DNA of 64,000 bases from Thauera humireducens (lineage in GTDB: Bacteria; Pseudomonadota; Gammaproteobacteria; Burkholderiales; Rhodocyclaceae): assembly GCF_001051995.2 (NCBI RefSeq), contig NZ_CP014646.1, forward strand, positions 744,001-808,000, in the 5' to 3' direction. Below are positions 4,492 through 40,942 of this stretch, in pieces. A model generated the notes under the pieces. It ran no database searches. It saw only the letters and a list, made by a program, of their open reading frames with translations, and was not told where the DNA came from. The translations under genes were made by a program, and so were the position numbers. Numbering within the stretch: position 1 is the stretch's first letter; every line of letters starts with the position of its first letter.

Positions 4492-6051
4492 TTAGGCTTC
4501 GATCTGTCCGGCCATCTGCTGGATCTTGATGACGACGAACTCGGCCGGCTTGAGCGGCGCGAAGCCGACCAGGATGTTCACGACGCCGCGGTCGATGTCG
4601 TTCTGGGTGGTGGTTTCGGCGTCGCACTTGACGAAGTAGGCGTCGCGCGGGCTGCTGCCCTGGAATGCGCCCTGGCGGAACAGATCCTGCATGAAGGCGC
4701 CGATGTTGAGCCGGATCTGTGCCCACAGCGGCGAATCGTTCGGCTCGAACACGACCCACTGCGTGCCGCGGAACAGGCTTTCCTCGATGTACAGCGCCAG
4801 CCGCCGGACCGGCAGGTACTTCCATTCCGACGCCAGTGCATCGGCGCCGGCCAGCGTGCGTGCACCCCACAGCAGGTGGCCGGTGACCGGGAAACTGCGC
4901 AGGCAGTTGAGTCCGACCGGGTTGAGCACGCCGTTCTGCGCGTCGGTCATGGTGTAGGTGAAGCCCTGCACCCCGGAGAATGAGGCCGCGAGGCCGGCCG
5001 GCGCCTTCCACACGCCGCGCTGGCCGTCGGTGCGGGCGATGATGCCGGCGACCGCACCGCAGGGCGCGAAGTCGGCGAGGCGGTTCTCGCTGAGCGGGTC
5101 GGGCATGCGCAGGCGCGGGAAGTAGGCTGCGGCGTTGATCGCATCGTCGTTGCCGATCGTGGCGCGCAGGCCGTTGACGCCGGCTTCGGCGGTCGCGATC
5201 GCGGTACTCGCGTTCGCAGTCCATGCGGCTGGCGCATCGATGATCAGCATCGCGCGCCGTTCCTGGCAGTAGGCGGCGGCAGTCGCCCAGGTCGCGGCCA
5301 CCAGGTCGGCGTCGAACGAGGGCGGCGGAATGCACAGCAGGTTGAAGAGGTCCGCCGCCTCGAGCGCGTACAGCCCGGTGCGCGCGTCGCGGTCACCGGC
5401 GATCTGGGTGTCGGTGATGGCGCCGCCGTCGGTAGCGGTGGTGGTGGCGTTCGCCGTGCCATCGACCGGACTCTCGTCGGCCGGGGCGGATGTCCTTACC
5501 CTGACGAGGGCGGACTGCGCCTTCAGCACCGTATCCACGAAGCGCGCGCTGCCCGTGTTGACGGAGACGTTGCGGAACGGTTCCGAGGCGACCACGGTGG
5601 TGCCGCCGGCGCGGTCGAGTTCCTCCACCGTCAGGTTGAACAGCAGCGTGTCCGACGTGTCTCGGGTCAGATGGTCGACCCGCGCCCGCAGGCGATTGCC
5701 CCAGGTGCCGGGGCTCGCGGCCTCGAGTACCAGGTTGCCGGAGGTGGTCGCCAGCGTGATCGTCGCGGTGTCGGTGTCGGCATCGCCATTGAACACGCGC
5801 ACGATCAGGGCATCACGGCCACCGTGCTGGAAGAAGTGACTGACCGCGTAGGACATCGTGCTCGAGCGCGACAGCCCGCCGAACAGGCGGCTGTACTCGG
5901 CGAAACTCTGTACGCGGATGGCGCGGTCGACCTCTCCGCGCAGGGCGCGACCGATGAAGGCGGTAATCGACGTGGCGACACCGGTGATCGTGCGTACGCC
6001 ACTCGGAATCTCCTCGATGTAGACCCCGGGGTAACTCAGGACTGACGGCAT
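4492..6051 (-). CDS. Phage-tail-like contractile sheath protein
   Basis: A 519-residue sheath protein. The N-terminus (VLSYPGVYIEEIPSGVRTI) and the C-terminus (LKPAEFVVIKIQQMAGQ) are the most diagnostic stretches of the contractile sheath family of eCIS and related prophage particles; the middle domain is variable, as usual. ATG at 6051 is preceded by GAGGAGT, a good ribosome binding site. It is the first gene of the visible operon, followed by tube, baseplate, DUF4255 and ATPase genes. No effector or receptor-binding gene is visible, so the operon must continue beyond base 1 or elsewhere in the genome. Confidence 0.93.
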   Translation of the reverse strand: MPSVLSYPGVYIEEIPSGVRTITGVATSITAFIGRALRGEVDRAIRVQSFAEYSRLFGGLSRSSTMSYAVSHFFQHGGRDALIVRVFNGDADTDTATITLATTSGNLVLEAASPGTWGNRLRARVDHLTRDTSDTLLFNLTVEELDRAGGTTVVASEPFRNVSVNTGSARFVDTVLKAQSALVRVRTSAPADESPVDGTANATTTATDGGAITDTQIAGDRDARTGLYALEAADLFNLLCIPPPSFDADLVAATWATAAAYCQERRAMLIIDAPAAWTANASTAIATAEAGVNGLRATIGNDDAINAAAYFPRLRMPDPLSENRLADFAPCGAVAGIIARTDGQRGVWKAPAGLAASFSGVQGFTYTMTDAQNGVLNPVGLNCLRSFPVTGHLLWGARTLAGADALASEWKYLPVRRLALYIEESLFRGTQWVVFEPNDSPLWAQIRLNIGAFMQDLFRQGAFQGSSPRDAYFVKCDAETTTQNDIDRGVVNILVGFAPLKPAEFVVIKIQQMAGQIEA

Positions 6052-7449: not shown

Positions 7450-7484
7450 GGGGTTCTAAGCCGGAACCGCCGAAAATTCCGTCA
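7450..7484 (+). repeat. Left terminal inverted repeat of the transposon
   Basis: Starts with the GGGG typical of Tn3-family ends and matches the right end (40908-40942, inverted) over 35 bp with one mismatch. Confidence 0.95.
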
Positions 7485-7789
7485 GCCGATCAACGTGGCT
7501 TGTCCCTCGCCCGGTCGATGGGGTAGACCCAACAGTCGTGTCACTAGCCGCCATTTCGATCACGGCAATGCCAGCCGGATGTCACGTCCAGATTGTTCCG
7601 GTCTGGACGGGGCCGACTGACGTCTCGGATGGCGGGTGGCATACAACTGCTGTGACTCCTGCAGGGGGGCGGCTGCCTGACCGGACGGCGAGCATCAACC
7701 CATCTCACGTATTCGTCATGTCAGCTTTGACACTGCGCACGCGACGGCACCCGACCCAGAGCAGCCGTAGAGCTTTTGGGAAAGCTGTC
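7485..7789. other. Gene-free stretch between the left transposon end and the first cassette
   Basis: No supported gene and no recognisable 3'-conserved segment of the integron. The right part (7735-7789, read on the minus strand) holds a noncoding motif, GAACGACAGCTTTCCC then AAGCTC and GGGTCGGGT, that recurs at 17764-17812. Confidence 0.5.
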
Positions 7790-7849
7790 GTTCAACGCCT
7801 GAAATAAGCCGTGCCGCGAAGCGGCATCGGCTTGATTGAATTGTTAGAC
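7790..7849 (-). other. attC site of the catB3 cassette
   Basis: A 60-bp site read on the minus strand: GTCTAAC, AAGCCGA, then CGGCTTA, GTTGAAC, with a palindromic centre. Its first bases overlap the catB3 stop codon, as usual in gene cassettes. Confidence 0.9.
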
Positions 7850-8476
7850 GGCAAACTCGAGCCAATACTTGTGCAGGCCAACAATATTAGACGAGCACAG
7901 CATGGGCATTGCCGCTTTGATCTTCTCCAGTGACCAATTCCACCACTCCATCTCCAGAAGCAATGAAATTTCCTCATCGGTGAAGCGTTTCTTAATCTTC
8001 TTAGCGGGATTGCCGCCAACGATAGCGTAAGGCTCCACATCTTTTGTCACCAACGAGCGGCTGCCTATCACCGCACCGTGCCCGATCTTGATTCCGGGCA
8101 TGACCATTGCCTCAGAGCCGATCCAAACGTCATTGCCAATGACAGTATTACCTGCTTTTTGGAAGGCATCGAGTGCGCTTGAGAATGCAGGTTCTTCCTG
8201 CATATAAAAGAACGGGAAAGATGATGCCCAGTCGTACCGATGCCCCTGATTGCCAGCCATGATAAAGGAAGCCCCACTCCCGATAGAGCAGAAACTACCG
8301 ATGATCAACTTATCAACGTCATCACGGTCCGGAAACAGATACCGTGCGCAGTCATCGAATGAGTGCCCATGATAGTAGCCAGAGTAATAGCTGTACCGCC
8401 CAACTTTGATATTGGGGTTCTTCACTTGCTCAGAAAGCAGCTTGCCTTTGAAGGGGCTATCAAAGTAGTTGGTCAT
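7844..8476 (-). CDS. catB3: Chloramphenicol O-acetyltransferase CatB3 (xenobiotic type)
   Basis: A 210-residue enzyme that inactivates chloramphenicol by acetyl-CoA-dependent O-acetylation. It begins [14 protein letters not shown] and shows the left-handed beta-helix hexapeptide repeats of this family ([40 protein letters not shown]) and ends [10 protein letters not shown] recognise it as CatB3 or a very close allele. It is the last cassette of the first integron array, read away from intI1 towards the transposon end. Expression should come from the Pc promoter at 11063-11091, but an IS630-family element lies between them. Confidence 0.95.
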
Positions 8477-8504
8477 AAGAGATCCCGCGGTCTGTGACTT
8501 TGCC

Positions 8505-8576
8505 GTCTAACGTTTGACATGAGGGGCGGCCAAGGGCGCCAGCCCTTGGACGTCCCCCTCGATGGAAGGGTTAGGC
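8505..8576 (-). other. attC site of the aacA4 cassette
   Basis: About 72 bp between GTTAGGC-type (8570-8576) and GTCTAAC-type (8505-8511) boxes, with a long GC-rich palindrome between them. It begins at the aacA4 stop codon. Confidence 0.88.
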
Positions 8577-9125
8577 ATCACTGCGTGTTCGCTCGAATGC
8601 CTGGCGTGTTTGAACCATGTACACGGCTGGACCATCTGGGGTGGTTACGGTACCTTGCCTCTCAAACCCCGCTTTCTCGTAGCATCGGATCGCTCGCAAG
8701 TTGCTCGGCGACGGGTCCGTTTGGATCTTGGTGACCTCGGGATCATTGAACAGCAACTCAACCAGAGCTCGAACCAGCTTGGTTCCCAAGCCTTTGCCCA
8801 GTTGTGATGCATTCGCCAGTGACTGGTCTATTCCGCGTACTCCTGGATCGGTTTCTTCTTCCCACCATCCGTCCCCGCTTCCAAGAGCAACGTACGACTG
8901 GGCATACCCAATCGGCTCTCCATTCAGCATTGCAATGTATGGAGTGACGGACTCTTGCGCTAAAACGCTTGGCAAGTACTGTTCCTGTACGTCAGCAAGT
9001 GTCGGGCGTGCTTCTTCTCCGCCCCACCACTCGACGATATGAGATCGATTTAGCCACTCATAGAGCATCGCAAGGTCATGCTCAGTCATGAGGCGCAGTG
9101 TGACGGAATCGTTGCTGTTGGTCAC
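8571..9125 (-). CDS. aacA4: Aminoglycoside 6'-N-acetyltransferase AAC(6')-Ib, Ser variant
   Basis: A 184-residue GNAT enzyme from the usual cassette GTG start at 9125 ([17 protein letters not shown]). It acetylates the 6' amine of aminoglycosides such as tobramycin and kanamycin. Three positions tell the allele: [10 protein letters not shown] keeps Trp and TTPDGPAVY keeps Asp, so it is not the fluoroquinolone-acetylating -cr form; IDQSLANAS has Ser where the common form has Leu, the change associated in the family with the Ib' phenotype (gentamicin in place of amikacin). A longer open frame upstream is cassette DNA, not protein. It is the second cassette of the array. Confidence 0.92.
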
Positions 9126-9143
9126 GATGCTGTACTTTGTGAT

Positions 9144-9250
9144 GCCTAACGCCCGCCTCAACTGCCGGAGGTTAATGGCGCCTTTTTTGCAGCTCCACCG
9201 CAAAAAAAGGTGACAGTAACCGGAGGTCAGATTGCAGGCGCTTGTTAACT
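9144..9250 (-). other. attC site of the dfrA cassette
   Basis: About 107 bp between a GTTAAC-type box at the dfrA stop and GCCTAAC (9144-9150) before aacA4, including a long imperfect palindrome with T-rich and A-rich arms. Confidence 0.82.
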
Positions 9251-9623
9251 CTTTTGCCAGATTTGATAACAATAGTTAATGTTAGACTCGAAATCTTGCT
9301 CAAATACCAACTTGAATGTATCTGGGATTTCAGGAAAAACTATGTCTCCATCTCGCTCGATGTCGACTGTTGAAATATGCAAAGTATCTACTTTGGAAAT
9401 CAAGCTTTTGTATATTTCACCACCACCAGAAACGATAACATGATCCGTGATTTCCTCTAAATTTATTAAGGCATCCTGAATTGAGGAGAAAACCATTACA
9501 CCCTCATCATTCGTAGAAAAATTAGAGCGAGTTACAACTGCATACTTTCGATTTGGGAGAGCGCCCATTGACTCAAAAGTTTTGCGCCCAACTAAAAGCC
9601 ATTGATTATATGTAATTGCCTTA
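9245..9623 (-). pseudogene. dfrA: Trimethoprim-resistant dihydrofolate reductase dfrA, 3' part
   Basis: This fragment encodes the last ~125 residues, from [19 protein letters not shown] through [15 protein letters not shown] to [12 protein letters not shown], of an integron-type (DfrA1 group) dihydrofolate reductase. The sequence is closest, from memory, to DfrA16/DfrA27. The first ~32 codons lie at 10726-10820 on the other side of an IS630-family element. Base composition is much more AT-rich than the neighbours, normal for this cassette. As the N-terminus with the folate-site Asp/Trp region is separated, a functional enzyme is unlikely. Confidence 0.92.
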
Positions 9624-10723
9624 CTAACGTTCCCGTAAGTAGTGTCATGTGAGCGATAATATGCCCCATGAAATGCAAACGACCTTCCGACGGCCGTGCC
9701 CTCGATCATCACACCTTGCAGGTGATGCGGCAGCAGGCTGTCAAAGCAGTGCGTGAGGGGCAGACAGTGCAAAGCGTCGCGGCGGCGTATGGCGTGAATG
9801 AGCGCAGCGTTTTCCGGTGGCTCGCCGACTTTGCCAATGGCGGGCAGAACGCATTGCTGGCCAAGCCGATTCCGGGGCGCCCCAGCAAACTCAGCGCCGA
9901 GGAGTTGTCGTGGATCGCCAATGCCGTTCGTGACCATAACCCGCAGCAGTTCAAGTTCGAGTTCGGCTTGTGGACGCTGTCGCTGATCCGTCACCTGATC
10001 AAGCGCCAGTTCAAGAAGGAGTTGTCGGTCTCCTCGGTCCACCGTCTCATGAAGATCCTGGGCTTCAGCGCCCAGAAGCCGCTCTACCAGGCGTGGCAGC
10101 AAGACCCGGTGCTGGTGCGCACGTGGGAGACGGAGACCTACCCCACGATCCGCGCCGAAGCCAAGCGGGTCGGCGCAACGATCTACTTTGGCGACGAGTC
10201 GGGTATCCGCTCGGATTACCACACCGGCACGACCTGGGCGCCGCAGGGCCAGACGCCGGTGGTGCAGGCGACGGGCCGGCGCTTCTCGCTGAACATGATC
10301 TCGGCGGTTAGCACGCAGGGCGAGTTTCGATTCATGTTGCATGAAGGCTCGGTTGGCGCGAAGGTGTTCGTCGAGTTCCTCAAGCGCTTGATGGTCAATG
10401 CCGAGAAGCCGGTGTTTCTGATCGTCGATGGTCATCCGATCCACAAGGCAAAGATGGTCAAGAGCTACGTCGAGGGCTTGGACGGCAAGCTCAAACTCTT
10501 CTACCTGCCGCCGTACTCGCCGCATCTGAACCCCGATGAAACGGTCTGGGCTCATGTGAAGCGCAAGGTTTCGCGCCAGTTGGTCGAGAGTGCCGAGGAG
10601 ATGAAGCGACTCGCACTCGGTGCATTGCGCAGCATCCAGAAGCTCCCTGAACTCGTGAAGTCATTTTTCAGGCAGCCAGAGTGCCGCTATATCCTGGAAT
10701 GACTCTACTTATTGAAAAGTTAG
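9624..10723. mobile_element. IS630-family insertion sequence (1100 bp) in dfrA
   Basis: The element is bounded by CTAAC...GTTAG ends with imperfect inverted repeats (shared TAAGTAG and GTCAT) and flanked by TA on both sides (9622-9623 and 10724-10725), the TA duplication that IS630 elements make. Removing it plus one TA rejoins TTT AAG GCA ATT and restores the dfrA frame exactly. Confidence 0.92.
9668..10702 (+). CDS. IS630-family transposase
   Basis: A 344-residue DDE transposase. An N-terminal helix-turn-helix ([19 protein letters not shown], ~residues 35-55) binds the ends; the C-terminal catalytic part shows [11 protein letters not shown] (first Asp), [14 protein letters not shown] (second Asp) and [20 protein letters not shown], the hallmark C-terminal motif of IS630 transposases with the acidic third residue. 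The gene fills nearly the whole element and is transcribed opposite to the interrupted dfrA. The length is normal and I see no frameshift, so the element may be active. Confidence 0.95.
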
Positions 10724-10975: not shown

Positions 10976-11989
10976 ATGAAAACCGCCACTGCGCCGTTAC
11001 CACCGCTGCGTTCGGTCAAGGTTCTGGACCAGTTGCGTGAGCGCATACGCTACTTGCATTACAGTTTACGAACCGAACAGGCTTATGTCCACTGGGTTCG
11101 TGCCTTCATCCGTTTCCACGGTGTGCGTCACCCGGCAACCTTGGGCAGCAGCGAAGTCGAGGCATTTCTGTCCTGGCTGGCGAACGAGCGCAAGGTTTCG
11201 GTCTCCACGCATCGTCAGGCATTGGCGGCCTTGCTGTTCTTCTACGGCAAGGTGCTGTGCACGGATCTGCCCTGGCTTCAGGAGATCGGAAGACCTCGGC
11301 CGTCGCGGCGCTTGCCGGTGGTGCTGACCCCGGATGAAGTGGTTCGCATCCTCGGTTTTCTGGAAGGCGAGCATCGTTTGTTCGCCCAGCTTCTGTATGG
11401 AACGGGCATGCGGATCAGTGAGGGTTTGCAACTGCGGGTCAAGGATCTGGATTTCGATCACGGCACGATCATCGTGCGGGAGGGCAAGGGCTCCAAGGAT
11501 CGGGCCTTGATGTTACCCGAGAGCTTGGCACCCAGCCTGCGCGAGCAGCTGTCGCGTGCACGGGCATGGTGGCTGAAGGACCAGGCCGAGGGCCGCAGCG
11601 GCGTTGCGCTTCCCGACGCCCTTGAGCGGAAGTATCCGCGCGCCGGGCATTCCTGGCCGTGGTTCTGGGTTTTTGCGCAGCACACGCATTCGACCGATCC
11701 ACGGAGCGGTGTCGTGCGTCGCCATCACATGTATGACCAGACCTTTCAGCGCGCCTTCAAACGTGCCGTAGAACAAGCAGGCATCACGAAGCCCGCCACA
11801 CCGCACACCCTCCGCCACTCGTTCGCGACGGCCTTGCTCCGCAGCGGTTACGACATTCGAACCGTGCAGGATCTGCTCGGCCATTCCGACGTCTCTACGA
11901 CGATGATTTACACGCATGTGCTGAAAGTTGGCGGTGCCGGAGTGCGCTCACCGCTTGATGCGCTGCCGCCCCTCACTAGTGAGAGGTAG
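10976..11989 (+). CDS. intI1: Class 1 integron integrase IntI1 (complete)
   Basis: A full-length 337-residue tyrosine recombinase that captures and shuffles gene cassettes at attI1 and attC. It begins [20 protein letters not shown]. Catalytic features are visible: [17 protein letters not shown] (first Arg), [15 protein letters not shown] (His-x-x-Arg) and [15 protein letters not shown] (His and the nucleophilic Tyr), plus the IntI-specific extra helix region around [15 protein letters not shown]. Of three intI1 copies in this transposon it is the only complete one, so it alone could mobilise all the cassettes. Transcription is opposite to its cassette array. Confidence 0.98.
11063..11091 (-). 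promoter_or_regulatory. Pc cassette promoter, PcH1 type
   Basis: Inside intI1, on the minus strand: -35 TGGACA (11086-11091), 17-base spacer, -10 TAAACT (11063-11068). This hybrid combination is the PcH1 variant, somewhat stronger than PcW in published comparisons. It drives dfrA, aacA4 and catB3 leftwards. Confidence 0.9.
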
Positions 11990-12172: not shown

Positions 12173-12793
12173 TCAGATCTCAATCTGCTCGGAGATCTCC
12201 AAGGCATCATCGACCTCGATGCCCAAGTACCGCACCGTCGACTCGAGCTTGGAGTGACCCAGCAGGAGTTGCACCGCCCGCAGGTTCTTCGTGCGCTTGT
12301 AGATCAATGTCGCCTTCGTGCGTCGCATCGAGTGCGTACCGTAGGCGGACGGATCGAGGCCGGCGGCCACCACCCAGTGCTCGACGATCCTCGCGTACTG
12401 ACGGGTAGAGACATGCGGTGAGTCGTGCAGGCGGCTCGGAAAGAGGAAGTCCTCCGCCCTCAGGCCGGCCTTCGCGATCCAGGCAGCCACAGCCGTACGC
12501 GTGGGCTCGGTCAGTTCGAACTGCACAGGCCGCTGCGTTTTCCGTTGCACGACCATGGCGCGTGAGAGCACCTGGTTTCCATGGGTCACGTCGCGCACCC
12601 GCAGGCTGACGAGGTCACACCCTCGGAGCTTGCTATCGATCGCGAGGTTGAACATGGCGAGGTCACGGACTTCGTGCGCGTTCTGCAGATGAATACGGAT
12701 GGCCCAGATGTCCTTGGGTTTGAGCGGTGCCTTCTGGCCCACCAGCTTCCCCTTGTTCCAGGCTTCCCGATGCGGATGTTCTCGGGTTTCCAT
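12173..12793 (-). CDS. Small tyrosine-type recombinase/integrase
   Basis: A 206-residue protein from ATG 12793 (AAGGAG ribosome binding site 7 bases upstream). It consists mainly of the catalytic domain of a tyrosine recombinase: DSKLRGCDLVSLRVRDV (first Arg), THSMRRTKATLIYKR (His-x-x-Arg), QLLLGHSKLESTVRYLGI (His and Tyr). The N-terminal core-binding domain is only a stub, a layout seen in a widespread family of short recombinases on plasmids and in accessory DNA. A perfect 16-bp inverted repeat brackets it (12088-12103, 12873-12888), and one arm merges with the broken integron end, which suggests it mediated the join. Its target is unknown. Confidence 0.87.
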   Translation of the reverse strand: METREHPHREAWNKGKLVGQKAPLKPKDIWAIRIHLQNAHEVRDLAMFNLAIDSKLRGCDLVSLRVRDVTHGNQVLSRAMVVQRKTQRPVQFELTEPTRTAVAAWIAKAGLRAEDFLFPSRLHDSPHVSTRQYARIVEHWVVAAGLDPSAYGTHSMRRTKATLIYKRTKNLRAVQLLLGHSKLESTVRYLGIEVDDALEISEQIEI

Positions 12794-13274
12794 GACAGAC
12801 TCCTTGTTGTTGATCGGAGTCTGATTCTTGAGCCCGTGGCGTGCGGCGGCTATCGGGGAAGATGCCCACAGCGTACTATCGGCCATCACCTGCCGTTGGA
12901 CATCCCAGCAGAATTTTACTAGTCGGCTTGTACTGGAGGACCGGTTTACGGCGGCCAACTCGGAGCTCGCGTTGGCTCAACCCGGCCAGAAGCCGTCACT
13001 GGTCACCCGATCCGGATAGCGGCCACCCGGGCGAGGCGGTATGCTCTCTGCCTATGCGTCAGATGACTCGCAGCAGCCCACTAAGCCGTCGGCTGCTGCT
13101 ATTCCTGTCTTGTTGGCGTGCCTTGCGCCTGGTTCTTACATCTAAACAGTAACTTGCAGGACAAGTTATCTGGCATTCCGAGGATATGCGGAAGAACTGC
13201 CGCCCTAGAACAAAGGTGTCGACAAGTAGGCAGCGCCGTCGATGGTGTGCCCATGCTAATTAGCGATTGAACCG
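12794..13274. other. Gene-free stretch upstream of the ABC-3C operon
   Basis: Contains the right arm of the 16-bp inverted repeat (12873-12888). I see no supported gene; short open frames lack family features or ribosome binding sites. The promoter of the ABC-3C operon should lie in the AT-richer part around 13130-13265, but I cannot point to clear -35/-10 boxes. Confidence 0.5.
12873..12888 (-). repeat. Right arm of the 16-bp inverted repeat flanking the recombinase
   Basis: GTACTATCGGCCATCA on the plus strand, the exact reverse complement of 12088-12103. Confidence 0.75.
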
Positions 13275-14498
13275 ATGACAGGCAAGACCACTGACCAATT
13301 TTCAGCTGGCGAGCAAGGCTTGGGATACATGTATCAAGCGCGACTCGCCCTGCTACAACTGCTCCAATTGCCGGAAGATACTGCCATCTTCCTGGAAAAG
13401 GACGACGACCTCGACTTCATCGACAGCGACGGCGGCAAGTCCTTGGCATCACTCAAGCACAAGGCGATCGGCGATAGGCTGACTGACCTGTCAACGGATT
13501 TCTGGAAGTCCGTCAACATCTGGCTGACGCGATACAAGCGTGATGGCCGCGCTACATCGAACCTGCGGTTCTTCCTGTTCACCACCGGCACGGTATCGAG
13601 CGGTTCGTTCCTAGCCCGTCTTCTCCCTGATCAGCCCGTCGCCACAGGCGATGCGACAGCGCTAACCGAACTTGCCGATGCCGCGCTTGCCGGATCGACA
13701 TCAAAACTCATCGCGCCGATCGCCACGGCTTTCAACGAACTGAGCGATCCGGAGAAGCAGGATTTTCTCGAACGAATCCTAATTCTCGATGGCAACCCAC
13801 GCATCGGCGACATCCCGGCGCTCATTAGGGACAAGCAGTTGCGCTGCATCCGGCGCGAGCACCGCGAGTTCGTCTTCGAGCGGCTGGAGGGCTGGTGGAC
13901 CGATGCCGTGATCAAACAGTTGACTGGCGCCAGGCCGGAAGGAATCTTCGGTTACGAGGTGTCAGACAAACTCTCGAATCTCGCTGAGGAATATAAGGCA
14001 GACAACCTGCCTATCACCTTCCGTGGAAAGGCACCCGCTGACGAGATCGACACGGATGCCGACCCGCGCCTGTTCGTGGCGCAATTGCGCGAAATCGGTA
14101 TTTCCTCGAATAGGATCAGGAGTGCGATTTTGGATTATTACCGGGCTTTCGAACAACGGTCGGCCTGGGCGCGCGAGAACCTGCTTGCGTTGGGAGAAGT
14201 CGAGGAGTACGAGGATCGCCTCGCCGATGAATGGGGTCGCTACAAGGATGTCGCTTTCGAGAAGCTGAAGGGCGACAGCGCGGAAGAGGCACTGCGCGAA
14301 GCCGGCTCCGCCCTCTATAACTGGGCAGAATTTGAGACCGGAAAGATCGAATCCCTACGCATCCGCGCAAGGGTGACTGAGCCTTATGTCCTTCGCGGCA
14401 GCCTCCACATTCTGGCAGATGCCACGCCAGAACCCAGGGTCTACTGGCATCCCAGATTCCTCGATCGCCTTGGCGAGTTGCTGGGGGTGGCCTCGTGA
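13275..14498 (+). CDS. ABC-three component system protein (first gene of the ABC-3C operon)
   Basis: A 407-residue protein beginning MTGKTTDQFSAGEQGLGYMY. The first ~100 residues (GYMYQARLALLQLL, IFLEKDDDLDFID, LASLKHKAI) follow the pattern of the sensor/effector component of ABC-three component systems: an acidic, nuclease-like fold region with E, D and a K within VxxKxK-like strands. The C-terminal ~150 residues look helical (WARENLLALGEVEEYEDRLADEW) like the family's C-terminal domain. The stop overlaps the next start (GTGA, 14495-14498). Such proteins are predicted to act with an SMC-like ATPase in phage or plasmid conflict; the specific activity is inference. Confidence 0.78.
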   Translation: MTGKTTDQFSAGEQGLGYMYQARLALLQLLQLPEDTAIFLEKDDDLDFIDSDGGKSLASLKHKAIGDRLTDLSTDFWKSVNIWLTRYKRDGRATSNLRFFLFTTGTVSSGSFLARLLPDQPVATGDATALTELADAALAGSTSKLIAPIATAFNELSDPEKQDFLERILILDGNPRIGDIPALIRDKQLRCIRREHREFVFERLEGWWTDAVIKQLTGARPEGIFGYEVSDKLSNLAEEYKADNLPITFRGKAPADEIDTDADPRLFVAQLREIGISSNRIRSAILDYYRAFEQRSAWARENLLALGEVEEYEDRLADEWGRYKDVAFEKLKGDSAEEALREAGSALYNWAEFETGKIESLRIRARVTEPYVLRGSLHILADATPEPRVYWHPRFLDRLGELLGVAS

Positions 14499-14983
14499 AA
14501 CGATGGGATCAGCGCCCCTTCGAGATCCGGAACCTGTTCAACCCTGCGTTCTGCGGCTTGGTCTTGTCCCGCGCCCTGCACGGCTATGAGGAAGAAGACG
14601 CCCGCGGCATGCCCTTCTCGCTGACGCTGCTTGTGCTGCCCCTGTGCCTGCACAAGGATTCGCGCGAGGTGATCGCCAACAGTCCGCGCAGCTACCTGCT
14701 CAAGACTGCAGAGAAGAACCAGCAGCTTATGGTGGGCTTCGCCGACCGGGTCACGCAGATGCTGCCGTATGCCTTTGAGGGGTTCGGTCTGCTAATGGAA
14801 CGGGGCTGCATCGCCATCTTGGAAGACGGTCGTATCCAGACCGTGCCCAAGAAGGTGCGCAAGACCGTCGATGGAACCGCCGAAACCGTCTCCTGCCAGA
14901 AAGTGGCGCGCATCGTCGGAAAGGAATTCGCACGCATCGCCGACCGGGCGACTGTTTACACGACTTTCGGGATTCGACCATGA
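14495..14983 (+). CDS. Three-component ABC system middle component
   Basis: A 162-residue protein with GTG start at 14495 overlapping the upstream stop. The sequence RPFEIRNLFNPAFCGLVL, then LLVLPLCLHKDSREVI and the C-terminal ARIADRATVYTTFGIRP, is characteristic of the small middle-component family found between the two larger genes of ABC-3C operons. It is thought to bridge the ATPase and the other component. No catalytic motif is visible. Coupling by overlaps on both sides indicates that the three products act together in fixed proportion. Confidence 0.85.
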   Translation: MKRWDQRPFEIRNLFNPAFCGLVLSRALHGYEEEDARGMPFSLTLLVLPLCLHKDSREVIANSPRSYLLKTAEKNQQLMVGFADRVTQMLPYAFEGFGLLMERGCIAILEDGRIQTVPKKVRKTVDGTAETVSCQKVARIVGKEFARIADRATVYTTFGIRP

Positions 14984-16926
14984 AGATCAGCTCCATCCAT
15001 GTCTACAGCCATGACGGCCAGCGTCGTGACCTCCGGTTCAACGTAGACGGACTCAACGTCATCACTGGTCGTTCCTCCACCGGCAAGTCGGCGCTCTCGG
15101 AGATCATCGAATACTGCATGGGACGCTCCTCGTTCAACGTCCCCGAAGGCATTATCCGCGACAAGGTGGCCTGGTTCACCGTGATCTATCAGTTCGAGAA
15201 AGAACAGGTGCTGGTTGCAAAGCCGACCCCGCCCGGTGGTGGTGCCAGTTGCAGCACGGCAATGCTGCGAAGAGGGGGGCAATTGCAGACGCCCGCGTTC
15301 AATGAGCTGGTGGTGAACACTGACGACGACAGTATCGTAGAACTACTGTCGCGCTTGCTCGGTATTCCCGAGAATCGCACCCAGGTCGCGCTTGAACACA
15401 GCCGCAATAGCTACGACGCGAACGTCAAGCACACGTTTTACTACCTGTTCCAGAAGCAGGGGCTGGTCGCAAACAAGGACCAACTTTTTTACCGACAGAA
15501 CGAGCAGTTCCAGCCGCAGGCGATCCGCGACACGCTTCCGATCCTGCTCGGCGTCTCCTCAAATGACCGCTATGAGTTGGAATCCAAGTTGCGCACAGCG
15601 CAGCGGGATCTGAGAATCACCAACAAAAAGCTGGAGCAGGCGCGCGACGCCGTCGGCACGTCGCATGAGCAGGCTATCGGCCTCTATTCGGAAGCAAAGA
15701 CGGTCGGGGTCATCGGCAACATCGACGAGAATCCGAATGCCGAAGGGATCATCGAGGCCTTGAGGTCGGCACTGTCTTGGATGCCCGAAACAGTGCCGGA
15801 CGACGATGGCAGCCGCGTCTCGCTTCTGGAGGATGAACTGGCCCAGTTGCGCCAAGATCGCCGCGACACTCAGACCCGGATCGATGCCGCGCGACAGTTC
15901 GCTAAACGTTCAGGCGGATACGAGAATGAGGCCGCCGAACAGATAAGCCGGCTCGCCTCGATCAAGGCGCTGCCGAAGAACCCCGGCAGTGGTGAGTGGC
16001 AATGGCCGTTCAGCGAACGAAACCTTGCGCTGGATTCCCCGGTCGCCGTCGTTCTGCTCAACGAATTGGAATCACTCGACAGGGAATTGCGCATCGCTAC
16101 CGGCCAGCGCCCCAAGCTCGAAGCCTACTTGGCCGAGCTGACCAGCAGGGCGGACGGAATAGCGGGCCGTATCAAGCAGAAGGAAGCGGAACTGTCCGCA
16201 GCGATCTCGGCCAACGAACTGATGGACCAGATGGGCACCCGCAACAACGCCGCTGCACGCGTGGTCGGCCGTATCAGCCTGTTCTTGGAAACGCTTCTCC
16301 CGAATGACGATCTTGCCAAACTGGAAGCGGAGAATCGCCGTCTCAACAATAAAGTCAAGCAGCTTGAGGAACAGATCGGCGTCGACGACAGCAACGAGCG
16401 CCTAACCTCGATCCTCAACAACATCTCCGCACAGGTGTCGCGATACATTCAGAAGTTCAACGCCGAATTTGCTCCGTACCCTGCACGGCTCAACCTGCCG
16501 CAGCTAACGATCATCTTCGATCGGCCCGAGCGTCCAGTGCCGATGAGCCGAACCGGCGGCGGCGAAAACCATCTGGCCTACCATCTGTCGGCACTGCTAG
16601 CCCTGCATCTGTTCGCGGCGCAGAACAGCCGCCCAATTCCGCGCTTCCTGCTGATAGACCAACCAACCCAAGTCTACTTTCCGTCCGAACAGATTTACAA
16701 GGATGCCGATGGCTCGGTGCAGAAGACGGAAAAGGATGCCGATCTTGATGCGGTGCGTCGGCTGTTCGAGCTATTGCTTAAGTTCACCCAAGAAGACGTC
16801 CCAGGTTTCCAACTGATCGTCACTGAGCATGCGAACCTGCGCGAGCAGTGGTTCCAGGACGCGCTCGTCGAGGAACCGTGGACCAAGCCGCCCGCGCTGG
16901 TTCCGGAGGATTGGCAACACCAGTGA
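14980..16926 (+). CDS. DUF3732 SMC-like ATPase of the ABC-3C system
   Basis: A 648-residue protein of the DUF3732 family, an SMC/RecN-like ABC ATPase. Walker A is GRSSTGKS at residues 30-37 after the strand DGLNVIT; Walker B is FLLIDQPTQVYFP near residue 550; the signature-like region is SRTGGGENHLAYHLSALLAL. Between ~200 and ~480 lie two long coiled-coil stretches with a short break, the SMC-type arm. The start overlaps the middle component (ATGA). DUF3732 proteins occur almost only in ABC-3C operons, which computational work has classed as biological conflict systems. All motifs are intact, so this copy should be functional. Confidence 0.9.
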   Translation: MKISSIHVYSHDGQRRDLRFNVDGLNVITGRSSTGKSALSEIIEYCMGRSSFNVPEGIIRDKVAWFTVIYQFEKEQVLVAKPTPPGGGASCSTAMLRRGGQLQTPAFNELVVNTDDDSIVELLSRLLGIPENRTQVALEHSRNSYDANVKHTFYYLFQKQGLVANKDQLFYRQNEQFQPQAIRDTLPILLGVSSNDRYELESKLRTAQRDLRITNKKLEQARDAVGTSHEQAIGLYSEAKTVGVIGNIDENPNAEGIIEALRSALSWMPETVPDDDGSRVSLLEDELAQLRQDRRDTQTRIDAARQFAKRSGGYENEAAEQISRLASIKALPKNPGSGEWQWPFSERNLALDSPVAVVLLNELESLDRELRIATGQRPKLEAYLAELTSRADGIAGRIKQKEAELSAAISANELMDQMGTRNNAAARVVGRISLFLETLLPNDDLAKLEAENRRLNNKVKQLEEQIGVDDSNERLTSILNNISAQVSRYIQKFNAEFAPYPARLNLPQLTIIFDRPERPVPMSRTGGGENHLAYHLSALLALHLFAAQNSRPIPRFLLIDQPTQVYFPSEQIYKDADGSVQKTEKDADLDAVRRLFELLLKFTQEDVPGFQLIVTEHANLREQWFQDALVEEPWTKPPALVPEDWQHQ

Positions 16927-16951
16927 TCCATGTCATTTGTCGCGTGGGGCG

Positions 16952-17012
16952 GAATAACCGGTTGCAGCGGACGGACCGCCGCGCGCCCCGCCGCTGAACC
17001 AGAGCGTTAGAT
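16952..17012 (+). other. attC-like site after the ABC-3C operon
   Basis: A palindromic core (CAGCGG at 16965-16970 and CCGCTG at 16991-16996), then 9 bases, then GTTAGAT (17006-17012): the layout of an integron attC right half, in the style of environmental cassettes. The left half is less regular (AATAACC). Confidence 0.6.
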
Positions 17013-17017
17013 TTTCT

Positions 17018-17707
17018 ATGCACATACCCCCATCTCACGTCTTCGAAGCACTCTCGGAAAAGGGTGTCACCGAACTGCATCACGCCAACAGCGTTGCAAC
17101 CGCCTGTCAGTTCATACGGGCGGGATCACTACTTTCTAGAGGCTCTGTGGAGCGGCTTGGCGTTGCGCAAACTCCTCAGGCATCTGACGAAGCGGATCGG
17201 CGATACAGTATCTGGTTCGATGTCTTTCTAGATTCTGTCGATATTCACAGGCGCGCCAGTCGCGCAAACGTCTACGGCCCCGTAATGTTTGTTTTTGACA
17301 TTAACATCATCAACGCAAACGGAACTGGAAGGATTTGGCTTACAAAACTGAACCCCACTAAATGGGCCGGCAAGCCGGACAGCCAACGCTGGTTCCAAGA
17401 TAGGAACGACCTTGAACGGAACTTTGTTAAAGGGCGTTTCGATCAGATGCTCGTCTTGCGCCATTGCGGTGGGGCACTGCCATTTGGAAGGCACCTCAAA
17501 AAGATCATCCTCGACGACCCTAAGCACCAAACGGACCACGATGTTGATCTCTACAGCATGGCAGTTGGAGCTCTTCGTTTGGCGATGCAGGACGCCAAGA
17601 TCGACGTTCCTATAGTTCGGCGGACATGTACTGAAGGGTGTACCTGCGAACAGGACTGGGCAGCAGACGCTGAGAAACTATTTCAGATGTTCGACCCGAA
17701 AATCTAA
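17018..17707 (+). CDS. Uncharacterised cassette-like protein, possibly ADP-ribosyltransferase-related
   Basis: A 229-residue protein starting 6 bases after an attC-like GTTAGAT box. I do not recognise it with certainty. The N-terminal pattern LHHANSVATACQFIRAGSLLSRGSVE, followed by YSIWFDVFLDSVDIHRRAS and YGPVMFVFDINII, loosely recalls DarT-like/DUF4433-type ADP-ribosyltransferase folds (a His early, a 'sets out to be seated' loop, then beta strands), but I cannot see an unambiguous catalytic glutamate. A Cys cluster (CTEGCTCEQD) lies near the C-terminus. Its stop codon overlaps ATCTAAC, an attC-type box, typical of cassette genes. GC content is lower than the host chromosome, suggesting transfer. 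Confidence 0.55.
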   Translation: MHIPPSHVFEALSEKGVTELHHANSVATACQFIRAGSLLSRGSVERLGVAQTPQASDEADRRYSIWFDVFLDSVDIHRRASRANVYGPVMFVFDINIINANGTGRIWLTKLNPTKWAGKPDSQRWFQDRNDLERNFVKGRFDQMLVLRHCGGALPFGRHLKKIILDDPKHQTDHDVDLYSMAVGALRLAMQDAKIDVPIVRRTCTEGCTCEQDWAADAEKLFQMFDPKI

Positions 17708-17977
17708 CCCTGCCGTCCACACAGACCTTACGTGTAGAGCAGCGCTAGGCCGGTTACCTCCACGTTTGAACGACAGCTTTCCCTTAAGCTCATAGGCAGC
17801 AACGGGTCGGGTCGAGACGGACGGGGGCCGTCGGCCTTGTGCCGCATCACTGGCGGAGGTCTCAGTCCGGCCCGGAGCCGACGGTGAGCGTTGGCGCCCG
17901 TAAGCGGACATCCACGATCCGCATACGGTATGCTTCTCGCGTTAGGCCCAAAGAATAAACGCCTTGGAGGAATAGAT
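17708..17977. other. Noncoding region between cassette-like genes, with a recurring motif
   Basis: Contains GTTTGAACGACAGCTTTCCC then AAGCTC and GGGTCGGGT (17764-17812), which matches the inverted copy near 7735-7790. It ends with CGTTAGGC (17941-17947), an attC-type right box that precedes the next gene by ~30 bases. Confidence 0.5.
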
Positions 17978-18484
17978 ATGCCGCTACCACTTATTCCGAT
18001 AATCGCCGCGCTCGCTGCTGGCGGCACACTCGTCCCACATGCCGCTGGCGGCATGATCGTCACTTCGGCAACTGGGTATGTCGCTGGTACGTATCTGAGC
18101 ACCGCAGCTATCGGAAGCATTCTTGCCGCTGGCTCTACCGCACTTGGAGCCGGTGCCTTATATCTTTCCGGCGTCGCGGGTAGCGTTATCGGTAGTGCGG
18201 GAATATTTGGAACAACTGTCGGGGCAACTGGAGTCACTGGTGCACTGATGTCCGCCGGTATCATTTCTTCCACCCCCATCTGGGTTCCCATCGCTGTCGG
18301 CGGTGCGGCAATTGGTGGGGCGGTAGGGCTCGGCTATGGTGGCTATCGGCTATTCAAGCTGAAGAAGAAGATCGCTAGCACTGCAAATAGTGAGGAAGCC
18401 CAGTTCACAGAAACCGATGCGAAAATCGTTGAGCAGGTTATCAAACGTCTGAGTAACCAAGAGAAGCCGAACGATAAATCCTGA
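17978..18484 (+). CDS. Small Gly/Ala-rich multi-pass membrane protein
   Basis: A 168-residue protein; ATG 17978 has TTGGAGG 7 bases upstream, better than the earlier GTG/ATG options. The first ~125 residues are almost wholly Gly, Ala, Ser, Thr, Ile and Val (AALAAGGTLVPHAAGGM, GSILAAGSTALGAGALYL, PIAVGGAAIGGAVGLGYGG), giving about four or five short glycine-zipper-like membrane segments. A charged cytoplasmic tail follows (KLKKKIAST ... EQVIKRLSNQEKPNDKS). No signal peptide or enzyme motif. It could be a pore-forming or membrane-perturbing protein, but nothing proves that. It sits between attC-like boxes, so it is probably a cassette. Confidence 0.6.
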   Translation: MPLPLIPIIAALAAGGTLVPHAAGGMIVTSATGYVAGTYLSTAAIGSILAAGSTALGAGALYLSGVAGSVIGSAGIFGTTVGATGVTGALMSAGIISSTPIWVPIAVGGAAIGGAVGLGYGGYRLFKLKKKIASTANSEEAQFTETDAKIVEQVIKRLSNQEKPNDKS

Positions 18485-18610: not shown

Positions 18611-19189
18611 TTGTCGGAGTTTCTTGCTTTGCCACTGTATGACACCTCTGATCGACTGAGGGCAAGCAAAATCGTTTGCAGTATTGCGTTCGAGCATGCT
18701 GAAAGCGCGAAACTCTTAGTTGCAACTGGAAACTACACGTCCGCTGTTAGTCTAGTTCGCCTTCAATATGAAGCGTTGGTACGTGCAATGTGGCTATTGT
18801 ACGCGGCATCAGACGATGCCGTGTCGAAGCTCATGAGCGAACTGTGCGCGGAGTCGGCTCAGAAGGCCAACTCCATTCCGATGCTCACCGAGATGTTGGA
18901 GAAGCTTCAGGGTAAGGCGCCCTCTGAGGCCCTCGAAATGCTGCGAGAATTCAAGGAGTATTCTTGGAAACCTCTAAGCTCCTTTGTTCACGGTGGAATT
19001 CATGCAATTTCACGGCACAGTAAGGGGTATCCAAAGCCTTTGCTTATCCAGTTGCTGAAAATATCTAATGGCGTATCTGCAATGGCTGGCATGTTGCTCG
19101 TTATCTTGAGTGGCGATGCTCGGCAACAGGGCAAAATTCCGGCAATCCAGCGCGCGTTCTCAGAATGCCTGCCAGAACCGAAAGTCTAG
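18611..19189 (+). CDS. Helical cassette-like protein of unknown function (DUF6988/DUF5677-like)
   Basis: At least 192 residues from TTG 18611. The same frame continues back to an ATC at 18569 (INELLTKSAALEQSLSEFL), which has AGGAGT 7 bases upstream; the true start may be that codon, either a rare ATC start or an ATG mutated to ATC. The product is all-helical: AFEHAESAKLLVATGNYTSA, LVRLQYEALVRAMWLLYAAS, then a Ser-Phe-Val-His-Gly motif (SSFVHGGIHAI). This pattern resembles uncharacterised families of the DUF5677/DUF6988 type with an aligned RxxxE...H arrangement. It follows an attC-like site, so is probably the third gene of a cassette fragment. Confidence 0.55.
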   Translation: MSEFLALPLYDTSDRLRASKIVCSIAFEHAESAKLLVATGNYTSAVSLVRLQYEALVRAMWLLYAASDDAVSKLMSELCAESAQKANSIPMLTEMLEKLQGKAPSEALEMLREFKEYSWKPLSSFVHGGIHAISRHSKGYPKPLLIQLLKISNGVSAMAGMLLVILSGDARQQGKIPAIQRAFSECLPEPKV

Positions 19190-19452
19190 TCTTATCCACG
19201 TGCCGTTGGAACACTACGTAAGTGGACAGCCCACTGGCGGCGCTGCGCACCGCCAGTGGCGTCCGCCCGAGCCTTCACCGCTACGGCTACCGATTAGCCC
19301 CACGTTGAATGGCAGGTCCCCTCAAGGCTCAGTGACCGCATTGGGTCGGCTGCACTCGATGGCGTCCGGCAGCTTTCGGGATGCGAAACTTGAGCGGCCG
19401 GTTTCCGGCGCCGAACTAAGAAGGTTGCTCGTCGCGTCCCGACCCAAAGCTG
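19190..19452. other. Noncoding region between a cassette-like gene and the beta-lactamase
   Basis: Convergent genes flank it. It has a 10-bp perfect hairpin (CCACTGGCGG / CCGCCAGTGG, 19231-19240 and 19250-19259) that may terminate transcription, and degenerate copies of the GGGTCGG motif on both strands (near 19345 and 19440). Confidence 0.45.
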
Positions 19453-20616
19453 TCATTGTTTCCCGGTTAGATTGCTATAAATTTTGTGGGCAATTTCTAC
19501 CCGTTCAGCATTGGGGTAGTTTTTATTGGCCAGCAACACAACCCCGAAGCGCTTTTCAGGCACAAACGCAACATAAGCACCGAAGCCGTTGGTAGCACCA
19601 GTCTTGTTAACCCACACATTGCTGTTAGGTGTGGCTGCAGGAACCTTAGCGCTTACTGGGGTTGGATTCAGGATAAGTTTGGGAGCATTGCCTTCTTGCA
19701 GCATAGGCAAGTCAACAGGCATTGCATACTCCTCCCAGATGAGGTCTTGAGTCATCTGGCCTACGCTGAAATAGCTCTTGCGGGTATTGTTTAAAGCCGA
19801 TTGCAGCATGCTATCCAAGGGCAACATGCCCATGTTGGCCTTCACAAAGGTGATCAGGTCAGTAGCCGTGGTTTTGATGCCGTAGGCTTCACTGTCCAAC
19901 ATGCCTGGATTGACACGCACAGGCTTCTTATCGTTGTTGTAGCCCCAAGCGTAGCTGGACATCTTCTGTGCAGGGATGCTCAGATAAGTGCTAGTCAAAC
20001 CGAGGGGCTGGAAAATGGTTTGAGTCATGGCGGTGCTGAAATCTTGCCCCAAACTTTTCGCCGTTATCCACCCTAAAGCACCGATGCTTGGGTTTGCATA
20101 AGTACGCATCGTGCCGGTTTTGTACGCAGGCTTCCAGGTGCGGAGGTATTCCAGAAGCTGCTCCCGAGTTTGGACTTCATCAGGCACCTGCAGAGGAATG
20201 CCGCCAACGGTGTGCGTTCCAAGATGGAAAAGCTGCAAGTTACCGAAGTCCGTACCAGACAACTCAGGCAAATACTTTGCTGCTGTATCGGTCAGTTTCA
20301 GCTTCCCAGTGGCTTCTGCGTGCGTCGCCAGTGTGGCTGTGAAGGTCTTACTGATAGAGCCAATCTCAAAAATCGTCTCGTCAGTTACCGGTGTTTGTTT
20401 CTCAACATCTGACACGCCATAGTTTAAGACATAAGTCTTGTCCCCCAATACCAATGCCACAGCCATACCAGGAATCTGGTTCTTTTCCATGGCAGGCAGC
20501 ACGGCTGCAGAGATGGCTTTCATTGCTTCAGCACTGGAAATTTCAGCAGCATTGACAGCCGAGCCAAGACCAAAGACAGCGGCTGTCAGAAGTACAGTAA
20601 ACAGACGGTTTTTCAA
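19453..20616 (-). CDS. Class C beta-lactamase (AmpC type)
   Basis: A 387-residue secreted serine beta-lactamase that hydrolyses cephalosporins. Signal peptide: residues 1-24 (MKNRLFTVLLTAAVFGLGSA, cleaved near VNA-AEI). Active-site motifs: SISK (in FEIGSISKTFTATL), YAN (TYANPSIGALG, class C Tyr-x-Asn) and KTG (WVNKTGATNGFG). The start is TTG at 20616, chosen because it alone keeps the signal peptide. The length fits class C. It resembles FOX/MOX/CMY-1-type enzymes only distantly, and I cannot name the allele; integron-associated class C enzymes such as IDC are a possibility. Orientation is opposite to the cassette-like genes and AT-richer than the chromosome, so it was acquired separately. 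Confidence 0.92.
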   Translation of the reverse strand: MKNRLFTVLLTAAVFGLGSAVNAAEISSAEAMKAISAAVLPAMEKNQIPGMAVALVLGDKTYVLNYGVSDVEKQTPVTDETIFEIGSISKTFTATLATHAEATGKLKLTDTAAKYLPELSGTDFGNLQLFHLGTHTVGGIPLQVPDEVQTREQLLEYLRTWKPAYKTGTMRTYANPSIGALGWITAKSLGQDFSTAMTQTIFQPLGLTSTYLSIPAQKMSSYAWGYNNDKKPVRVNPGMLDSEAYGIKTTATDLITFVKANMGMLPLDSMLQSALNNTRKSYFSVGQMTQDLIWEEYAMPVDLPMLQEGNAPKLILNPTPVSAKVPAATPNSNVWVNKTGATNGFGAYVAFVPEKRFGVVLLANKNYPNAERVEIAHKIYSNLTGKQ

Positions 20617-20833
20617 TTTTTACCTTACGGGTGAAGGAGGAAAGCCAACGCTGGCACTTGCGATGCAACTGAGTGCTGTAGCGCTACGAGCTGGGGATTC
20701 TAAAAAATTTGATAGCAAATTGGCTCGGCATCGCGGAGCGATGAGTGACTGCTTCTGGCCGCCTGCCGCCGACCGCGGTCTGGCTCGAAAGCGGCCTGTC
20801 AACGCGCCGTTTCATCGTTGCCATGATCGTTTC

Positions 20834-22154: not shown

Positions 22155-22808
22155 ATGAAAACCGCCACTGCGCCGTTACCACCGCTGCGTTCGGTCAAGG
22201 TTCTGGACCAGTTGCGTGAGCGCATACGCTACTTGCATTACAGCTTACCAACCGAACAGGCTTATGTCCACTGGGTTCGTGCCTTCATCCGTTTCCACGG
22301 TGTGCGTCACCCGGCAACCTTGGGCAGCAGCGAAGTCGAGGCATTTCTGTCCTGGCTGGCGAACGAGCGCAAGGTTTCGGTCTCCACGCATCGTCAGGCA
22401 TTGGCGGCCTTGCTGTTCTTCTACGGCAAGGTGCTGTGCACGGATCTGCCCTGGCAGGGCATCAACGAAGACCAGAACCTGGGCATCGCCATCACCCGCC
22501 GTGCGCTGGAAGCCCCGCTGCGCGCCATCGTGGCCAACGCCGGTGAAGAACCGAGCGTGATCGTGGCCAACGTCAAGGCCGGCGAAGGCAGCTACGGCTA
22601 CAACGCCGCCACCGGCGAGTTCGGCGACATGATCGCCATGGGCATCCTGGACCCGACCAAGGTGACCCGCTCGGCCCTGCAGCACGCCGCTTCCGTCGCC
22701 GGCCTTGCGATCACGACCGAAGTGGTCGTGGCCGAAGTGCCGAAGAAGGAAGAGCCGGCCATGCCGGGTGCTGGCGGTATGGGCGGCATGGGCGGCATGG
22801 ATTTCTGA
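22155..22808 (+). pseudogene. intI1'-groEL': intI1-groEL fusion gene
   Basis: An open frame of 217 codons: the first ~100 residues are IntI1 ([12 protein letters not shown] ... VLCTDLPW), then, in frame after base 22454, the C-terminal ~117 residues of the chaperonin GroEL ([18 protein letters not shown] ... [13 protein letters not shown]). IntI1's catalytic domain and GroEL's ATPase part are absent, so neither function should remain. This same kind of fusion is known next to ISCR3-type elements in Salmonella genomic island 1, and it marks this segment as SGI1-like. The integrase start, LexA box and Pc are retained. Confidence 0.95.
22242..22270 (-). promoter_or_regulatory. Pc cassette promoter, PcW with extended -10 (TGN)
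   Basis: -35 TGGACA (22265-22270), 17-base spacer, -10 TAAGCT (22242-22247), with TGG directly before the -10. The extra TG makes the PcW(TGN-10) variant, stronger than plain PcW. It faces the sul1 fragment, with no cassettes left. Confidence 0.87.
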
Positions 22809-37201: not shown

Positions 37202-37290
37202 ACCAACCTCCGAGTGGCCGCAAAATTGTGCGGAAAACTCTGTCGCCAGACGCTACCATACGGAAACCTCGTCTTAATGGTTTTCCGCTT
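37053..37290. promoter_or_regulatory. res: Intergenic res region between antitoxin and tnpR
   Basis: Divergent promoters should lie here. Dyads that could be resolvase-binding subsites: CGGAAACC ... GGTTTTCCG (37261-37287) just before the tnpR start, and GCGGAAAAC at 37230-37238, whose reverse complement is at 37280-37288. An 11-bp inverted repeat (37150-37160, 37177-37187) lies on the antitoxin side. I could not delimit the three subsites exactly. Confidence 0.6.
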
Positions 37291-40910: not shown

Positions 40911-40942
40911 CGGAAATTTCGGCGGTTCCGGCTTAGAACCCC
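40908..40942 (-). repeat. Right terminal inverted repeat of the transposon
   Basis: Reverse complement begins GGGGTTCTAAGCCGG and ends TTCCGTCA; matches the left end over 35 bp with one mismatch. Confidence 0.95.

Follow-up and report, generated by a model that had tools for sequence, protein, structure and literature searches.

A type II Lamassu operon, probably acquired as an integron cassette, is cargo of a Tn3-family resistance transposon in Thauera humireducens

In the Lamassu family of immune systems, a dimer of LmuB acts together with LmuC to sense DNA ends, hairpins and the replication intermediates of phages and plasmids; freed LmuA then tetramerises and cuts DNA indiscriminately, so that the infected cell dies or the plasmid is lost. 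Lamassu is reportedly triggered by hairpin or palindromic DNA, and integrons recombine via single-stranded attC hairpins. According to the accessible text of PMC10586767, type II of the family is equated with ABC-3C and DdmABC and has experimentally shown anti-phage and anti-plasmid activity, described as abortive infection. An addendum, in the accessible part of PMC12409362, describes the liberation of LmuA and the activation of its nuclease by tetramer formation. Here we analysed one 64,000-nucleotide stretch of the Thauera humireducens genome (contig NZ_CP014646.1, positions 744,001 to 808,000; hereafter the window), which carries a three-gene operon that is nearly certainly Lamassu type II (DdmABC/ABC-3C). 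It probably arrived as an integron cassette of about 3.8 kb, and a Tn3-family resistance transposon carries it today. The system is a known one in an unexpected package, and the new point is its unit of movement. Numbered on the window, the operon consists of the following genes.

13275 to 14498, plus strand: lmuA, 407 residues, Cap4-like PD-(D/E)XK effector with C-terminal domain CTD7 (Pfam, PADLOC, fold match and 50-sequence alignment)
14495 to 14983, plus strand: lmuC, 162 residues, GTG start, middle component MC3 (Pfam MC3 and PADLOC LmuC)
14980 to 16926, plus strand: lmuB, 648 residues, SMC/Rad50-like ATPase (DUF3732, PADLOC LmuB and solved relatives 9hqu, 9ny5 and 9uxl)

LmuA, LmuC and LmuB are encoded in one operon, the genes overlapping by 4 bp at each junction (GTGA and ATGA). 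In Pfam they match CTD7, MC3 and DUF3732 with E-values of 2.7e-41, 9.9e-52 and 2.3e-53, respectively; the corresponding PADLOC E-values are 1.1e-71, 4.2e-15 and 3.1e-134, and all matches are nearly full length. LmuA is built of an N-terminal effector and a C-terminal docking domain, whereas LmuB is a DUF3732 protein of SMC/Rad50 type with a Walker A motif and the Gln that is usual in place of the Walker B Glu. Among 54 related loci from bacterial genomes (best LmuB segment identity 35-94%), lmuA and lmuC precede lmuB in 50; the other four, truncated by a contig edge, start within lmuB. A profile of 50 LmuA sequences recovered the solved LmuA chains 9hqu, 9hqx, 9nxx and 9ny1 (E 4.5e-18 to 6.7e-16), and a profile of 34 LmuB sequences recovered solved LmuB chains (E 4e-78 to 9e-68). 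Partial matches were left out before counting (LmuA of L031; LmuB of L035, L040, L051, L052 and L055; L numbers designate comparison loci). The likeness to described Lamassu type II/DdmABC systems (Vibrio cholerae; Salmonella enterica LmuACB 9hqu, 9hqx and 9hr5; 9nxx, 9ny5, 9uxh and 9uxl) covers gene order, PADLOC matches, the Cap4-like nuclease fold of LmuA and the Gln at the catalytic Glu position of LmuB. By analogy with these systems, the window operon would defend by the family route, with LmuB/LmuC sensing followed by LmuA release and DNA cutting; its expression and defence activity are presumed.

An original prediction, made from the DNA letters alone, had described three complete ABC-3C genes coupled by 4-bp overlaps, which is borne out by the open reading frames (ORFs), Pfam and PADLOC. 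It had also named a structural search that placed the genes in unrelated families as one outcome that would speak against it; LmuA and LmuB match solved Lamassu proteins instead. The label 'predicted conflict system' is right as to ABC-3C and outdated otherwise, since type II corresponds to Lamassu/DdmABC, with experimental activity and solved structures. A PHROGs search gave nothing useful.

The Walker A motif GRSSTGKS begins at residue 30 of LmuB, and LLIDQP begins at residue 557. The Walker B aspartate, D560, is kept, and the catalytic Glu position is occupied by Gln561, which is invariant in all 34 aligned LmuB sequences; in the accessible text of PMC10586767, this Glu-to-Gln change at Walker B is described as general in Lamassu. 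The only cysteines of LmuB are Cys46 and Cys91, so it has no zinc-hook CxxC. In LmuA, S59-L60-K61 lies opposite the Gln-x-Lys of solved LmuA (QSK, QDK) in the hidden Markov model alignment. The PD-(D/E)XK fold of Cap4-type nucleases is present, and D45 and K61 of the D...QxK residues are kept; as Gln is replaced by S59, the protein is termed Cap4-like only. In the predicted structure, residues 21-240 are good (ten-residue means of 77-93, with 58 at 121-130), whereas the C-terminal part is poor and the overall mean is 70.8. The fold matches Lamassu LmuA and Cap4 nucleases. One solved LmuA sequence has Ala in place of the active-site Lys, which we infer to be a catalytic mutant.

Ser in place of Gln raises the alternative that LmuA is nuclease-dead or altered, acting otherwise than by cutting DNA. 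S59 indeed stands opposite the Gln of solved LmuA and is invariant in 50 of 50 sequences, but E41, D44, D45 and K61 are likewise invariant, which points to an active site rather than decay, and the fold agrees with solved LmuA and Cap4 nucleases. We regard a non-cutting LmuA as very unlikely; the protein is expected to be an active nuclease in which a ligand is altered. As for the earlier statement that Walker A and B are intact, it holds for GRSSTGKS and D560 and fails at Gln561, and 'all motifs intact' was overstated in view of the E-to-Q change in LmuB and the Q-to-S change in LmuA. Compared to the described type II systems, the window operon differs in having SxK for QxK in LmuA, in the missing CxxC of LmuB, and in having an attC-like site at its 3' side and a relative in a cassette array.

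13217 to 17012, plus strand: Lamassu cassette unit, about 3.8 kb, from the start of homology with the L037 operon to the end of the attC-like site
16952 to 17012, plus strand: attC-like site, 61 nucleotides running from GAATAAC to GTTAGAT, a hairpin with one bulged base, starting 25 nucleotides after lmuB

The array relative is L037, a Halomonas metagenome-assembled genome (MAG), which shares 90.7% identity with window positions 13217-16993. In L037, the attC-like site upstream of lmuA (5717-5779) holds the start of this homology in its core, and the L037 contig has four more attC-like sites at 1576, 4098, 4674 and 10403, i.e. it is a cassette array; these four belong to the training set of model R2 described below. 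In the LmuB tree, built on 51 rows (the window, L092 and 49 further loci), the window LmuB is sister to that of L037 with support of 99/94. Like the 3' attC of an integron cassette, the site at 16952-17012 combines a GTTRRRY core, a YAAC partner and a bulged hairpin, although it is weak in R2 alone.

In a relaxed hand scan, whose threshold let through 3.5 null hits per shuffle, this site scored 23.8 and the best of six shuffles 23.9; a stricter scan, in which five of seven pairs between the cores were required, missed it. Since the hand-scan score was no better than the null, we built covariance models. For R1 we used 8 resistance-cassette attC sites and for R2 15 sites, none abutting Lamassu; the catB and aac(6')-Ib attC sites are in both training sets. 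Applied to 57 sources (903 kb) with a limit of E <= 10, R1 gave 16 matches, seven of which were training sites. Six of the nine others had E < 0.1, and three of these six follow the lmuB stop, at 16 nucleotides in L007, 25 in the window and 57 in L046. The window site scored 20.1 bits, with E 0.0032 within the element without filters and E 0.086 over the 903 kb; within the transposon, again without filters, no other non-training match fell below E 0.3. R2 gave 18 matches over 58 sources, ten of them training sites, and five of the eight others abut Lamassu, downstream in L007, L046 and the window and upstream in L037 and L018. Under random placement, the abutment has p of about 1e-6 for R1 and about 7e-9 for R2, both values being rough, as uniform placement and independent loci are assumed.

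The site after lmuB can be aligned between the window and L007, a Nitrospira MAG, and thus seems to be part of the operon rather than a chance neighbour. In bottom-strand folding it has a z of -3.03 in the window; the corresponding values are -4.83 for L007, -3.72 for a resistance-cassette attC, -3.54 for the upstream site of L037 and -2.47 for the downstream site of L092. We also considered a transcription terminator for the hairpin and rejected it, as L007 has no T-run directly after the stem. Judging from its anatomy, a single strand of the site would form a hairpin that an integron integrase would recombine with attI or a further attC, letting the three-gene unit insert or excise whole as one circle.

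At the 5' border of other loci, an R2 attC-like site lies upstream of lmuA in L037 and L018 (Vreelandella zhaodongensis), whereas L007, L017, L020 and L092 have the core GTTATGC alone. The 9-mer GTTATGCCG, picked after the sequences had been viewed, occurs 9 times on the plus strand of 879 kb, and 6 of 53 loci have it within 250 nucleotides upstream of lmuA, against an expectation of 0.14. Among 15 pairs, the three closest show identities of 72-78% in the 40 nucleotides that follow GTTATGCCG and 53-60% in the 40 preceding it (random, 52%). In L046, a Melioribacteraceae MAG, repeats of about 130 bp surround the operon at 148, 4546, 5369, 6422 and 7066, one with a weak R2 match. The same L037 contig also contains, at 1772-3936 between attC-like sites, a pair of genes that by eye encode an ATPase and an HNH-like protein, perhaps another two-gene defence cassette.

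The present carrier of the operon is a complete transposon, whose main parts are listed here.

7450 to 40942, no strand assigned: Tn3-family transposon, 33,493 bp, with inverted repeats at 7450-7487 and 40905-40942 and TGAGA on both sides
within the ORF 37482 to 40910, plus strand: Tn3 transposase (NF033527, 866.3 bits, cut-off 500)
37228 to 37884, plus strand: serine recombinase/resolvase, matched by serine recombinase models below their cut-offs
7790 to 9272, minus strand: catB and aac(6')-Ib class 1 cassettes (NCBIfam), with attC sites at 7790-7849 and 8505-8576
10976 to 11989, plus strand: intI1, class 1 integron integrase (NF011946, 799.5 bits, cut-off 435)
12173 to 12958, minus strand: tyrosine recombinase of the Phage_integrase family, with TIGR02249 at 23.6 bits against a cut-off of 265, so not an integron integrase by score
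19453 to 20616: class C beta-lactamase (NF033085, 523.7 bits)

With 38-bp inverted repeats differing by 2 mismatches, a 5-bp TGAGA target duplication and a Tn3 transposase, the element has the hallmarks of the Tn3 family (repeats of about 38 bp and a 5-bp duplication). Its insertion splits a GGDEF gene that is contiguous in three relatives (L069, L070 and L071), of which L069 and L071 continue into the right flank straight after their own copy of the 5 bp. The earlier claim that the operon is transposon cargo is confirmed by these repeats, the duplication and the empty sites. Further cargo comprises aadA, ereA, tet(G) and floR, so that the element resembles class 1 integron/Tn3 resistance transposons in its intI1, catB, aac(6')-Ib, aadA, ereA, tet(G), floR, transposase, 38-bp ends and 5-bp duplication; it differs from them by the complete Lamassu operon, a DarT-like gene and a DUF6988 gene. 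It had also been predicted that the operon rides next to integrons and efflux genes. The neighbourhood was correctly described, whereas the operon's own 3' attC-like site and its array relative had been missed. Structurally, this transposon would allow resistance and defence to spread together. The host genome is a single contig of 4,171,754 bases.

The 5' region of intI1 is present in three same-strand copies, at 10838, 22017 and 35157; the second is joined to what we take to be a groEL-like 3' end (22155-22808). Within a dfr-type cassette lies a transposase-like ORF (9668-10702), presumably of IS630 type. The stretch 19440-20700, with the class C beta-lactamase, is 99.8% identical to a Sphingobium plasmid.

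The tyrosine recombinase bears on an alternative route of arrival. It has 58-nucleotide inverted flanks and is 99.7% identical to a gene on the IncP plasmid pRSB223, where it encloses, together with a 117-bp segment (window 19334-19450), a different operon beside an oxa-1/aadA1 integron; the largest gene of that operon is DNA methylase-like by eye. The shared recombinase and 117-bp marks around different operons indicate differing cargo between the same marks in two mobile elements, and the stretch from 12173-12958 to 19334-19450 is possibly an exchange slot for cargo. Lamassu might accordingly have come in a larger transposon- or recombinase-driven block, the hairpin after lmuB being a chance structure or terminator. 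Block exchange is made likely by the marks, the island is complex and rearranged, as the three intI1 5' copies illustrate, and an attC is unseen in most relatives. However, the site has attC features (YAAC/GTTR ends and a bulged base), and R1, with resistance-cassette sites as its training set, recognises it. A similar site without a T-run right after the stem follows lmuB in the Nitrospira MAG, though the sequence beyond differs, and abutting sites in other loci far exceed random placement. We consider arrival in a block unlikely.

Several observations weigh against arrival as a cassette, beside the null-like hand-scan score. In R2, the window site is a weak match (E 1.5 over 894 kb). At the left border of the window the homology ends at 13217, the core is not kept and there is no recognisable attC; intI1 ends 1.3 kb upstream of the operon, but attI1 and its cassettes are on the other side. 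Candidate sites of L046 (z -1.17), L018 (z -1.82) and L017 (z +1.75) fold poorly. Plain hairpin scores reached 11 or more in only 4 of 53 windows downstream and 3 of 52 upstream, against controls of 0.5% and 0.8%, and L054, L048 and L044 among these matches look like chance. Across whole genomes, the matches of R2 at E <= 0.001 numbered 20, spread over 6 of 11 genomes, and included no abutting site. To the eye, L092 starts and ends like a cassette, yet it has no R2 match. Over all 15 pairs around GTTATGCCG, identity rises only from 55% before to 59% after, a small step. Eight loci carry a cassette label assigned by us (the window, L007, L017, L018, L020, L037, L046 and L092), strong and weak cases mixed, and 43 of the 50 relatives in the LmuB tree are without it. 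On this tree at least five changes are required for the label, which shows hardly any clustering: among 500 shuffles, 37 were as low as the 6 counted. Outside the window, no integrase above the family cut-off was seen beside Lamassu.

The left border is also the basis of a weaker form of the cassette reading, compatible with it, in which the unit is a former cassette with a broken left border and a dead site that moves only with the Tn3 transposon. Its left border without a core, the placement of attI1 on the opposite side of intI1 and the lack of any promoter-like match upstream of lmuA agree with this; against it, the right site retains paired arms and core, and a cassette can end in its own attC even without a left attC. 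We put this a little short of an even chance. The operons of L007 and L037 are likely to have arrived as cassettes; for the window, where the left border is missing, this is somewhat less likely.

Other searches show how widely such operons occur. Of 8,000 candidates scored, 2,276 proteins fall into the large LmuA family at E <= 0.001; the sequence of the window LmuA itself is present on 28 contigs. Megablast of the operon gave one match, at 77% identity, among 72,556 plasmid records and none in an E. coli collection; more distant LmuB relatives are found on 88 plasmid records, and the 59 nucleotides upstream of lmuA have no match in plasmids. In whole genomes, LmuB occurs in 5 of 61 relatives, 4 of 369 genomes of the class and 8 of 201 genomes of the family of the L037 genome (the centre genome being included in all three counts), indicating a rare and patchy occurrence. 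Integron integrases above the family cut-off were found in 6 of 11 genomes, including that of the window, and in 0 of 14 controls; IntI1-like recombinases in L010, L012 and L043 score below that cut-off. R2 gave no match on L082, L092, L093, L095 and L096, nor on L066, a Klebsiella plasmid Lamassu whose neighbours are an integrase and insertion sequence (IS) elements. We hold with moderate confidence the wider view that integrons can carry and shuffle whole multi-protein immune machines beside defences of one or two genes, and that a Lamassu lineage has repeatedly entered or left arrays in Halomonadaceae, Nitrospirota, Ignavibacteriota and the window transposon as a three-gene cassette of about 3.8 kb.

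In the accessible part of PMC12409362, which cites Darracq 2025 and a mobile-integron study, defence systems with more than two genes are called 'notably absent' from integrons, and defence cassettes are described as small and streamlined. The window unit is like the anti-phage cassettes of chromosomal and mobile integrons in presenting defence genes as a cassette with an attC. Different from these cassettes, small and of at most two genes according to the same partial text, it has three genes and about 3.8 kb. No Lamassu cassette is described in the passages on Lamassu, in part also on integrons, of open-licence papers naming both Lamassu and integron, a search that did not include Darracq 2025 and does not establish absence from print. 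If the cassette reading is true, this three-gene unit of about 3.8 kb is an exception to the limit of size and gene number inferred for integron defence, searches for small single-gene cassettes alone would overlook such defence, and immunity and resistance cassettes can meet in one transposon. The coexistence of DNA-hairpin-sensing immunity with hairpin-based recombination also becomes a testable question; speculatively, a Lamassu cassette may need to tolerate, or even be regulated by, integron activity.

Downstream of the unit, two further genes were characterised.

17018 to 17707, plus strand: DarT-like gene of ADP-ribosyltransferase fold, 229 residues, beginning 6 nucleotides after the attC-like site
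18611 to 19189, plus strand: DUF6988 gene (Pfam E 8.9e-72), PADLOC candidate PDC-S52 (E 4.7e-84)

The DarT-like gene has 297 homologues at E <= 0.001, and length is nearly constant among the 120 listed. With its predicted model (mean predicted local distance difference test score 88.5), the six best Foldseek matches are DarT structures (E 2e-5 to 4e-4; TM-scores of 0.44-0.53, normalised by query length), and DarT accounts for seven of the eight matches at E <= 0.001. One relative of 37% identity, adjoining IS elements, was found in plasmids, and the 369 genomes of the class gave the window's own gene and one partial match. IS110-family transposases lie near a Salinivibrio relative of this gene (L099:1662-2618) and near the Klebsiella Lamassu (L066:3706-4728). 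GC-rich hairpins follow the DUF6988 gene and the gene at 17891-18484. In a P. aeruginosa plasmid integron region (L065:550-2627), a cytosine methyltransferase and a DUF4928 gene lie beyond the resistance cassettes. The 47 nucleotides after the catB attC (7749-7795) recur inverted at 81% after the DarT-like gene (17766-17812), and a similar form of this stretch follows the oxa-1 attC in pRSB223.

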